Translations under genes and position numbers: made by a program
DNA from: a bacterium
GTDB taxonomy: Bacteria > Oederibacteriota > CAKKQC01
Assembly: GCA_919901855.1 (NCBI GenBank)
Contig: CAKKQC010000019.1
Location: 1-64,000, forward strand
DNA: 64,000 bases
Direction of reading: 5' to 3'
Shown: piece by piece, positions 44,852 through 48,608 of the stretch
How the letters are laid out: each line of letters opens with the position of its first letter
Numbering within the stretch: the first letter of the stretch is position 1
Notes under the pieces: generated by a model
The model's input: the letters and a program-made list of their open reading frames with translations, nothing else
Databases searched by the model: none
What the model was told of the DNA's origin: nothing

Positions 44852-45642
44852 GAATGGGCCTCCCGCGCGGCGTCCTTGAGCCCCTCGAGCCGGGTGGCCC
44901 GGGTCGCGTCGATGACCTGCGTCTTGGTCTCCACGAGACAGCTCCCGGCCTCGACCTTGGGCTCCTCGAGGATCTCGAACCGGCCGGTCCCCTTGAGCAA
45001 CCCGGCAAGCTCGTCGCGGTGGGCGCGCACGAGCGCCACGTCCTTGGGGGCCACGAGCACGGTCACGAGGTCGGCCTCCGCCGCCCGGCGCAGGCAGTCC
45101 TTGACGACCGCGAGGACGGCCTCGGGCGCGAGGGCGAGATGGCCCTGGACGAGCTGTTCGGCCGCGGCAACCGCGACCCCCGTCGCCTCCGTCTCAACCC
45201 CGTCGAACCGCGCCTTCCAGGCTTCCGCGAGCGCATCCCCCATGGAGAGCCAGCGCTCGAGCGCGTCCTTGAGCTCCTTGAGCCCTTCCTCACGGCCCTC
45301 GGCGCGGCCCTGGTCCATGCCCTCTTTCAGGCCGTCCGCGTATCCCTGCTCGCGGCCCTGGCGCTTGAGATCCTCGGCCTCCGTACGCGCCGCGGCCAGG
45401 ATCCGGTCCGCCTCGATCCGCGCCAGCTCCTCGGGGGTCGGGATCGCGGCAGCCGCGGCAGCCGCCGCGGCAGCTTCCGCCGACTCCGCTGCCACCCGGT
45501 TCTCGTCCTCGAGGCGCTGGGTCTCCCCGGCCTCCAGGTCGACCTTGACGCCGGACGGGGGCCGAACCCACACGGGTTCCCGGTCGAGGCGGTATGACCC
45601 CCCCGACACGACGGGAGACTTGCGGGATTTCTTCTCCTCCAT
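44848..45642 (-). CDS. fliH: FliH, regulator of the export ATPase
   Basis: 264 aa. Middle region has helical GxxxG-like spacing (GREQGYADGLKEGMDQGRAE, then GREEGLKEL), typical of FliH, followed by the C-terminal domain that binds FliI (LALAPEAVLAVVKDCLRRAA; AGSCLVETKTQVIDATRATR). It shares one base with the fliG stop. Confidence 0.93.
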   Translation of the reverse strand: MEEKKSRKSPVVSGGSYRLDREPVWVRPPSGVKVDLEAGETQRLEDENRVAAESAEAAAAAAAAAAIPTPEELARIEADRILAAARTEAEDLKRQGREQGYADGLKEGMDQGRAEGREEGLKELKDALERWLSMGDALAEAWKARFDGVETEATGVAVAAAEQLVQGHLALAPEAVLAVVKDCLRRAAEADLVTVLVAPKDVALVRAHRDELAGLLKGTGRFEILEEPKVEAGSCLVETKTQVIDATRATRLEGLKDAAREAHS

Positions 45643-46643
45643 CAGACGAGAACCTCCGCTTCGCCGCCGCGGGCCACGGTGATTTCACCCGTTTCCTCGA
45701 GCCGGCGGATGACATTGACGATCTTCTGCTGGGCTTCCTCGGAGTTCTTGAGCCGCACGGGGCCCATGACCTCCATGTCCTCCAGCACCATCTGCCGGGC
45801 GCGCTGGGACATGTTCTTCAGGATCTTGGACTTGACCTGGTCGCTCGCGCCCTTGAGCGCCAGCACGATGTCCTTCTGATCGACGTCGCGCAGGACCATC
45901 TGGATCGCGCGGTCGTCGATGAGCATGATGTCGTCGAACACGAACATCAGCCGCTTGATGTCGTCGGCCAGCTCGGGGGATTCCTCCTCGAGCTTTTCCA
46001 TGACGGCCTTCTCCGTCGAGCGGTCCATCCGGTTCATGATCTCGGCGACGGCGCGCACGCCGCCGGCCGCCGCGTACTCCTGCGTGAATACGCTCGAGAT
46101 CTTGCGCTCGAGGACGCGCTCGACCTCCATGATGACGTCCGGGGTCGCGCGTTCCATGACCGCGATCCGGCGCGTCACGTCGATCTGGACCTCGGCCGGA
46201 AGCTGGCGCAGGACGTTCGCCGCGTGGTCCGGCGACAGGTGCGCCAGGATCAGGGAAATCGTCTGCGGCCCCTCGTTCTGGATGAAGGTCAGGAGCTGGT
46301 GGGGATCCGCCCGCTTGATGAAGTCGAACGGGACGGTCTGGAGGGCCCCCTGCAGCCGGTTCAGGATCTCGATCGCCTTGTGCGACCCGACGCTCTTCTC
46401 GAGGAGGTCCCGGGCGTAGTCGACGCCGCCCTGGACGAGGGCATCCTCGGCCAGCGACATCTGGTAGCAGTCCTCCATCACGATCTCTTTTTCCGCCGGC
46501 GTGATCTTGCGCATGTTCGCGATCTGGAGCGTCAACTGCTCGACCGTCTCTTCCTTCAGGTGCTTGAGCACCTGCGACGACAGGTCCGGGCCCAGCGCCA
46601 CCATCAGGATCGCCGCCTTCTGTTCCGCACTCATCCCAGCCAT
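45642..46643 (-). CDS. fliG: FliG, rotor/switch protein
   Basis: 333 aa. N-terminal FliF-binding domain (KAAILMVALGPDLSSQVLKH), middle EHPQTISLILAHL-equivalent (GPQTISLILAHLSPDHAANV), and C-terminal torque domain (MFVFDDIMLIDDRAIQMVLR). ATG for MSAEQK three residues in is an alternative start. It follows a small gene whose end resembles the FliF peptide that binds FliG-N. Confidence 0.95.
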   Translation of the reverse strand: MAGMSAEQKAAILMVALGPDLSSQVLKHLKEETVEQLTLQIANMRKITPAEKEIVMEDCYQMSLAEDALVQGGVDYARDLLEKSVGSHKAIEILNRLQGALQTVPFDFIKRADPHQLLTFIQNEGPQTISLILAHLSPDHAANVLRQLPAEVQIDVTRRIAVMERATPDVIMEVERVLERKISSVFTQEYAAAGGVRAVAEIMNRMDRSTEKAVMEKLEEESPELADDIKRLMFVFDDIMLIDDRAIQMVLRDVDQKDIVLALKGASDQVKSKILKNMSQRARQMVLEDMEVMGPVRLKNSEEAQQKIVNVIRRLEETGEITVARGGEAEVLV

Positions 46644-46650
46644 GGTGTCC

Positions 46651-46926
46651 TCACCTCCCCTTGAAGCGTTCTTCTTTGAGCCAATGCGTGATGATCTTCG
46701 CCAGGAACTCGGGCCGCTCGGCCGCGAGCTGCTTGACGCGCGAACGAATCTCCTTCTTGCCCGCCGTGAAGGCCGCGGCCGGATCGGCCGGGCCTTCCGC
46801 CGCCAACGCGGCCATAGCTCCGTCTTCGCCCAGCAACGCCATCAACAGGTCGGCGGACATATCGGCGTCCGCCGATATGTCATGGGCCGCTGCGGCCCCG
46901 GGCGCGGCGGGCATCGGGTCCGTCAC
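46651..46926 (-). CDS. Small protein with a FliF-tail-like FliG-binding end
   Basis: 91 aa from a GTG at 46926 that overlaps the fliF stop as GTGA. The last 25 residues (KQLAAERPEFLAKIITHWLK) closely follow the last 22 of FliF next door (RMARQRPEMIASIIKRWILE): the same RPE, a hydrophobic i/i+4 pattern, the same Trp and a basic/acidic end. In FliF this helix binds the FliG N-domain. No membrane or ring-building part is present. The first 50 residues are Ala/Asp-rich and include DISADADMSAD, encoded by palindrome P3. Likely a fliF-tail duplicate that could bind FliG; function inferred. Confidence 0.65.
   Translation of the reverse strand: MTDPMPAAPGAAAAHDISADADMSADLLMALLGEDGAMAALAAEGPADPAAAFTAGKKEIRSRVKQLAAERPEFLAKIITHWLKEERFKGR
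46856..46881. repeat. In-gene palindrome P3 (26 bp)
   Basis: GACATATCGGC and GCCGATATGTC are perfect 11-base arms around GTCC. The inner CGGC-GTCC-GCCG equals the core of P1 (CGGC-GGAC-GCCG) in opposite orientation, and the reading phase is the same. Confidence 0.75.
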
Positions 46927-48608
46927 CGCTTCTCCTCCAGGATCCACCGCTTGATGATGGACGCGATCATTTCGGGCCGCTGCCGGGCCATTCTGGTGAC
47001 GTGCTGGCGGATCTGCTGGCGGCGCTGGCGCTCGAGGGCCGCCGTGGGCTCGGGCTCCATGAGCAGGGGCGGCGGCGGCGCGATCTCCTCGGACGGAGGA
47101 GGCGGCGGAGGAGGTGGCGGCGGCGCGGCCGGCGCCACCTCTTCCACGATGGGCGCGCCGGCGACTTCCACCAGCACGCGTTCCCGCACGATCCTCGGGC
47201 GCACGAGCGCGCGCACGAAGACGAGCGTCAGCAGCACCACCCCCACGATCGTCCCGAATTTCGCCACGTCCAGCCACACCTGTTCCTGCTCCTTCCGGTC
47301 GACAGCCGACCGCTCGGCCGCGATTTGATCCATGAGGGTCTTGTCGAACGGCAAATTCTCGACGGCCACCTGGTCACCGCGCACCGGGTCCAGCCCGACC
47401 GCGGCCGCGACGGCCCGCTCGATCGCGGTCTTCTGCTGCACTTGCACGTTGTCCACGAAGACCGCGATCGAGAGCCGCTTGATCGCCCCCGGCGCCTTGA
47501 TCACTTCCTCGACCTTCTCGTTGATCTCGTAGTTCCTGGTGTCCTCGTTCTTGGCATAGGACAGGTTGCCGCCCACGACCGCCTGGTACCCGGGGATGTT
47601 GCTCTCGACGCCGGGAACGCCGCCCGGGATGCCGCCCACACCCGTGTAGGTCTCGGTCTTGTGCTGGGTGCTGCGCGCGATGCCGACAGGGCCGACCACG
47701 GGCTCGAAGCTCTTGCTCGTGGACCTGACCTGGTCGAAGTTCAGCTCCGCGGTCACCTTGACCTCGGCCCGGCCCTCGCCGAGCACCTTGGTCAGGATGT
47801 CCCGGACCCGGCGCTCGAGGTCCCGCTCGACGGCCGCCTGCACCGCGAGTTGGCCCTGCGCGAGCTTGGCCTGCCGCGAGAGCTGGCTGGTCGTCGCCTC
47901 GGGGTTCGCCTCCTCCAGCAGTTCGTCGCGGACGAGGTCCGAGAGGACGTTGCCGAAGACGTCGACGACCTTGACGTTCTGGGGCTTGAGCCCCTCGACG
48001 CCCATGGCGACGAGGTGAATGATGCCCCGGACCTGGCCGGGTTCCAGCTTGTACCCCCGCTTGAGATCGAGGAGCACGGACGCCGTGGCGTCCTGCGCCT
48101 TGTCGCTGTAGAGCGAGGGCTGCGGCAGCGCCAGGTTTACCTTGGCGCTCCGGATCTCGCTGAGGGACATGATCGTGCGCGTGAGCTCCCCCTGCAGGGC
48201 CCGCTGCCACGCGACCCGCTGCTGGGCGTCCGTCGTCCCGAGCACCTGCGTCTTGTCGAACAGCTCGAACCCGACACCGGGCCCCTTGGGGAGCCCCGCG
48301 CTCGCGACGGACAACCGAAGATCGTAGACATCCTTGATCGGCACCTCGATCGTGGCCCCGTCGTCCTTGAGGCGGTACGGCACCCCCGCGGACTTGAGCC
48401 TCGAGACGATGGCCGAGGCATCCTCGCGCGGCAGTTCCGCGAAAAGGACGCCGTAGGCCTCGGGCGGACGCGATACCGCCGCCAGGAGGAACGCCAGCAC
48501 GACGAACAGCACCACGGGCACGACGGTCACGACCGCCTTCTGCAGGGGCGTCAAGCGCCCCCACAGCTCCCGGAACCGCTCCAGCATCTGCCGCAGATAC
48601 TCGCTCAT
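46923..48608 (-). CDS. fliF: FliF, MS-ring protein
   Basis: 561 aa. Two membrane helices (about 25-46 and 445-463), with ring-building motifs between (YGVLFAELPREDASAIVSRL; VNLALPQPSLYSD; KVTAELNFDQVRSTSKSF). The cytoplasmic tail contains a run of ten prolines (47094-47123), which would need EF-P for smooth translation. It ends in the FliG-binding helix RPEMIASIIKRW. Housing for the export gate. Confidence 0.95.
   Translation of the reverse strand: MSEYLRQMLERFRELWGRLTPLQKAVVTVVPVVLFVVLAFLLAAVSRPPEAYGVLFAELPREDASAIVSRLKSAGVPYRLKDDGATIEVPIKDVYDLRLSVASAGLPKGPGVGFELFDKTQVLGTTDAQQRVAWQRALQGELTRTIMSLSEIRSAKVNLALPQPSLYSDKAQDATASVLLDLKRGYKLEPGQVRGIIHLVAMGVEGLKPQNVKVVDVFGNVLSDLVRDELLEEANPEATTSQLSRQAKLAQGQLAVQAAVERDLERRVRDILTKVLGEGRAEVKVTAELNFDQVRSTSKSFEPVVGPVGIARSTQHKTETYTGVGGIPGGVPGVESNIPGYQAVVGGNLSYAKNEDTRNYEINEKVEEVIKAPGAIKRLSIAVFVDNVQVQQKTAIERAVAAAVGLDPVRGDQVAVENLPFDKTLMDQIAAERSAVDRKEQEQVWLDVAKFGTIVGVVLLTLVFVRALVRPRIVRERVLVEVAGAPIVEEVAPAAPPPPPPPPPPSEEIAPPPPLLMEPEPTAALERQRRQQIRQHVTRMARQRPEMIASIIKRWILEEKR

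Follow-up and report, generated by a model that had tools for sequence, protein, structure and literature searches.

The C-terminal tail of FliF normally co-folds with the N-terminal domain of FliG (FliG_N), which fixes one FliG per FliF. In current accounts of the rotor, this joint sets a 1:1 ratio and the MS ring serves as the template of the C ring (PMC7355467, PMC12222027). Model motors disagree on a possible mismatch between FliF and FliG, 33-mer MS rings in 34-mer C rings being described on one side (PMC11087270) and a 34:34 stoichiometry on the other (PMC11528121). In Salmonella, FliF-FliG fusion and deletion-fusion mutants illustrate that a changed joint is compatible with a turning motor (PMC6445934). 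FlgV, described in Campylobacterota and spirochaetes (PMC10655999, PMC11607428), is a small accessory protein at the junction of the MS and C rings. It carries two transmembrane helices with a cytoplasmic tail (PMC11607428), and its cytoplasmic portion is coplanar with FliF_C and FliG_N. Descriptions of FlgV mention no FliF tail, and its gene is found with the sigma-28 module.

A search of the open literature did not return any stand-alone FliF tail. Within these bounds, an initial reading of the locus made from the sequence alone was right in stating that no flagellar protein of this kind is known to have been described. The window, i.e. the whole 64,000-nucleotide stretch analysed here, contains a natural second copy of one half of the tail/FliG_N joint, whereas the Salmonella laboratory fusions remove this joint.

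The small gene between fliF and fliG

The copy is encoded by a gene of 91 codons plus stop (46651..46926; this and all other features of the window given below are on the minus strand). Its open frame (46654-46926 without the stop) is read from a GTG start at 46926 to a TGA stop at 46651-46653, between fliF (46923..48608, 561 aa) and fliG (45642..46643, 333 aa). Both neighbours are intact and Pfam-confirmed, and this fliG is the sole complete one in the genome. The position between the two genes, proposed by the sequence-only reading, was thus confirmed, as was the coupling to fliF: the fliF stop TGA (46925-46923) overlaps the GTG start as GTGA. A Shine-Dalgarno sequence GGAGGAG (46932..46938) lies 5 nt upstream of the GTG, still within fliF; another, 10 nt ahead of the fliG ATG, overlaps the stop codon of the small gene. 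The GC content by codon position (0.68/0.52/0.83) is that of a real gene in this window of 69% GC. A programmed frameshift joining FliF to the small gene was rejected, the overlap GAG AAG CGG TGA having no slippery heptamer. As both frames have their own starts and Shine-Dalgarno sites, two separate proteins are likelier than a frameshift product.

The initial reading had the last 25 residues of the small protein track the FliF tail. The homology holds but its extent does not: the FliF-tail-like segment covers about 40 residues (48-87; 46666..46785) and ends four residues before the C-terminus. The parent module is the FliG-binding tail at the C-terminus of FliF itself (46926..47042). The two were matched by blastp (E 8e-6, 46% over 24 aa) with a local score of 82, which was reached by none of 5000 shuffles (best 45). 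A profile built from FliF tails only gave the small protein 34 bits, whereas none of 6000 shuffles exceeded 14.1 bits. Both tests led to the rejection of a chance match. Three small proteins and nine FliF tails all share five residues (A68, P72, W82, E85 and E86). The FliF-tail profile also aligned, weakly (E 1.2), with the Thermotoga maritima FliF peptide crystallised with FliG_N (5tdy_A); a PDB search with the profile of the small proteins alone returned chance matches only. The window protein has no match in Pfam, NCBIfam or PHROG. The curated NCBIfam fliF model, built by others, does match two of its counterparts described below at the extreme C-terminus of the model: the copy of the FCPU426 genome at model positions 514-554 of 555 (E 6.5e-5) and the small protein of genome G227, from a different phylum, at 503-551.

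The remainder of the protein is of another nature. Residues 1-47 (46786..46926) begin Pro/Ala-rich and include a short amphipathic stretch of acidic character; they have a relative only in the copy of genome G001. No transmembrane helix was detected (highest 19-residue hydropathy 1.27), which, together with the tail homology, supports the view of a soluble copy of the FliG-binding tail. FliF has two membrane helices and the ring-building domains YscJ_FliF and FliF_C (PF01514 and PF08345, both identified by Pfam in the FliF of the window). The small protein has neither; it retains the tail alone, recognised by sequence, behind a different N-terminus, and cannot be classed as a FliF. It would work like the FliF tail without being FliF. 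Nor is it a FlgV. It resembles FlgV by its small size and its putative accessory role at the same ring junction but is devoid of the two transmembrane helices, and its gene lies between fliF and fliG, not beside the sigma-28 module.

Relatives in the phylum and detached tails elsewhere

The phylum was sampled with 45 genomes, about 26 of them flagellated. The spacing between fliF and fliG is 3-15 bp in the 21 other genomes in which both genes were readable and 279 bp in the window. The small gene was found in only three genomes of the phylum: that of the window (G000), the FCPU426 genome G005 and G001. In G005 (JAUXIB010000046), it likewise lies between fliF and fliG and codes for 62-72 aa depending on the start. 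G001 is the sole other member of the family of the window, and its copy is located on JAHFSL010000169 amid unrelated genes. This assembly is incomplete, with low contig coverage and no readable fliF-fliG junction; it contains an FlhA fragment and G001 is therefore probably flagellated. Absence from relatives, named by the initial reading as a refutation of its proposal, is thus observed for most of them (three of about 26 flagellated genomes carry it), but the identical place in G005 and the persistence in G001 point the other way. The identical place is also occupied by a membrane-anchored counterpart in another phylum (G227).

This patchy distribution, with two of about 26 flagellated genomes carrying the gene at the fliF-fliG place, could reflect a functionless, dead-end duplication of the end of fliF. 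We consider this highly improbable. The gene has its own start and Shine-Dalgarno sites, and it is intact in three divergent genomes with synonymous change well above non-synonymous change. Between the window and G001, identities by codon position are 0.64/0.71/0.39, and dN is 0.41 for a saturated dS of 2.1, a pattern that holds in both halves of the protein and suggests purifying selection. In a tree of the tails, G000 and G001 are united in one clade with 100/100 support. A single clade for the three small proteins of the phylum was neither supported nor rejected (AU p 0.41). Parallel conserved families exist elsewhere, as described below.

The location of the G001 copy away from flagellar genes could also mean that the small protein binds another armadillo-like protein and adjoins fliG by descent only. 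FliG-like and MgtE_N-like domains do occur in other proteins of these genomes. This is the least probable of the explanations weighed here, as the protein retains the Pro and Trp of the FliG-binding tail, the gene occupies the same position in two families and again in another phylum, and G001 encodes FlhA and is probably flagellated.

Outside the phylum, the tail profile was searched against about 340 genomes, complemented by a second search. FliF itself accounted for most matches, the others being a few short proteins. Compared with the FliF of their own genome, the short proteins of G324, G187, G227, G405 and G099 scored 100, 110, 111, 112 and 177, respectively, for shuffle maxima of 48-59, and by these alignments they are real copies of the FliF tail. 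Each has one transmembrane helix. The same tail module is thus found on separate small proteins in the G187 phylum, G227, G099/G428 and G405, but these are membrane-anchored, unlike the window protein. Those of the G187 phylum and of G227 copy the last helix of FliF plus the tail. At least nine of the 14 genomes of the G187 phylum have this 'mini-FliF'; its gene adjoins purF and a queuosine-transporter-like gene (neighbours named by eye) in family f159 and lies elsewhere in f261. G428 has a protein of the G099 type with 59% identity (dN 0.34, dS 1.42). In G227, the gene for the membrane-anchored tail is situated exactly between fliF and fliG. The fliF beside it (L090:2125-3303) is short, about 389 aa, with YscJ_FliF_C only, the N-terminal YscJ_FliF domain being missing. 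Two further candidates were not retained: a small membrane protein of G336 (L066:3121-3456), encoded beside a DnaJ-like gene (named by eye) and with a FliF-tail-like segment followed by 24 more residues, is borderline with three of 5000 shuffles equally good, and the G347 match is probably due to chance.

In the tail tree, the G187-phylum mini-FliF proteins cluster with their own FliF and apart from the window group, and a single clade for all detached tails was weakly rejected (AU p 0.04). The FliF tail was therefore probably set free more than once.

Predicted docking on FliG_N and possible roles

The proposed binding partner is the N-terminal domain of the FliG of the window (46326..46634, Pfam). 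Structural models were built from the G005 locus (L053), where the FliF tail, the small gene and fliG share a frame: the DNA was read with stops as residues, giving read-through chains with artificial linkers. The AlphaFold model of the small tail with FliG_N had a pLDDT of 69.7 and a pTM of 0.59, and that of the FliF tail, small protein and FliG_N a pLDDT of 64.6 and a pTM of 0.51, both from four aligned rows, which cover the small tail and FliG_N and carry no information on the FliF tail. Viral-contig relatives of FliG were sought in order to deepen the alignment and none was found. The best structural matches of both models were FliG chains of C-ring structures. Overall, the models matched the FliG_M domain of these structures with Z 6.3-7.3 over 62-75 residues at 1.8-2.6 Å, Z values below 8 being able to arise from a common arrangement. 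In the two-part chain, the small tail and the first half of FliG_N were superposed on FliG_M with Z 7.3 (64 residues, 2.6 Å); the three-part chain gave Z 6.4 (75 residues, 2.0 Å). FliG_N co-folded with the FliF tail closely resembles FliG_M (PMC7355467). In the three-part model the matched range includes the small tail and leaves the FliF tail outside, which is no fair contest between the two tails as the aligned rows favour the small one. For the first model, Foldseek returned nothing but weak matches, the top one being FliG_N of Helicobacter pylori (5wuj_B). Compared with the FliF tail bound to FliG_N (PDB 5TDY, 5WUJ), the tail module is alike by sequence and the co-folded arrangement alike in these low-confidence models. 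They are compatible with docking of the small tail in the FliF-tail site of FliG_N, where they tentatively place it, in line with the initial reading.

We favour, at about even odds, the interpretation of the small protein as a soluble second ligand of FliG_N that most likely holds FliG for assembly or fills the FliG subunits without FliF. Coupled translation between FliF and FliG would make it at a near-equal dose. It would then occupy the FliF-tail site of new FliG subunits, according to the low-confidence models, and keep FliG_N folded until the MS ring is ready. Later, it would yield to FliF or stay on those FliG subunits that have no FliF partner. FliF and FliG of Campylobacter jejuni are mutually dependent for stability (PMC6946799), which makes the holding of FliG_N the simplest role for a soluble tail without anchor. 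We infer that this role most likely comes first and the filling of FliF-less FliG subunits second. The initial reading, partly supported overall, had suggested that a second FliG ligand could raise the number of FliG copies, bridge mismatches of the FliF and FliG rings or store FliG ahead of assembly, all of them putative functions. The location of the G001 copy outside the flagellar operon and the absence of the gene from most relatives stand against this interpretation.

The small protein could instead be a permanent component of the ring, filling each FliG that faces no FliF and so allowing a C ring with more copies of FliG than there are FliF subunits in the MS ring. The 33-mer MS ring seen inside 34-mer C rings of Salmonella (PMC11087270) would leave room for it, and detached tails recur in several lineages, mostly membrane-anchored as an extra anchoring point would require. 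The window protein has no such anchor and would be unable to transmit torque by itself, and other studies report 34:34 or, for a wide ring, take 1:1 as given; a permanent place in the ring is accordingly unlikely. Alternatively, a soluble protein that is co-expressed in near-equal dose and that, in the models, uses the same binding surface could be an antagonist, competing with FliF for FliG_N and limiting the number or timing of C rings. This is very unlikely, an inhibitor on the same message as its target leaving little room for regulation.

The FliF tail as a possible portable dock for FliG

Two clusters of other genomes bear on an anchor other than FliF. The gene order in G387:C82 (L097:9895-14274) is that of a complete FliG paralogue, a 265-aa membrane protein whose C-terminus is a FliF tail, an unknown protein and FliM. 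In G388:C120 (L098:2789-6561), a membrane protein that carries its FliF tail internally stands between MotA and FliM. Both genomes also have a normal FliF. These clusters look like a FliG/FliM rotor on a non-FliF anchor, and their gene order, together with the homology, suggests that the tail is able to dock FliG on such an anchor.

Stray FliG domains were also encountered. In the window's own genome, G000:C88:1486-1782 (L055) is a 98-aa open frame with FliG_C only. Soluble-looking proteins of G000:C54 (L054:4174-5112) and G001:C277 (L056:3-1067) join the C-terminal, stator-facing domain of FliG to matches of the MotA cytoplasmic region (blastp against the MotA of the window, E 8e-7 and 5e-9, respectively) and, judged by these matches, are rotor and stator contact domains on a single chain. 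Small proteins of G039 (L061:2107-2517) and G023 (L063:1953-2381), from the phylum of the window, have an AbrB/MazE-like DNA-binding N-terminus followed by FliG_C, the MazE match in L061 being just under the cut-off. A second and divergent FliF/FliG set appears to be represented in G004:C110 (L059) by a 1005-aa open frame with the N and C domains of FliG next to fliF-like sequence. In genomes that lack FlhA, G003:C74 (L060) and also G026:C24 have two large FliG_C-bearing open frames (532-748 aa) in tandem.

The recurrence of detached tails in several lineages, like the FliG paralogue of G387 followed by a tail-bearing membrane protein, suggests that FliG has a portable dock in the FliF tail. 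Tentatively, detached tails may form a recurrent, undescribed class of FliG-docking proteins that uncouple the copy number of FliG from that of FliF or, an idea raised by the G387 cluster of FliG, tail-bearing membrane protein and FliM, allow a FliG-FliM rotor to be anchored elsewhere than at the MS ring. A separate protein with a FliF tail is a natural candidate for breaking the 1:1 rule of FliF and FliG, and we know of no earlier one. One FliF hook per ring subunit may not hold everywhere, and the old question of how ring sizes are matched becomes testable with a 91-residue protein and a peptide.
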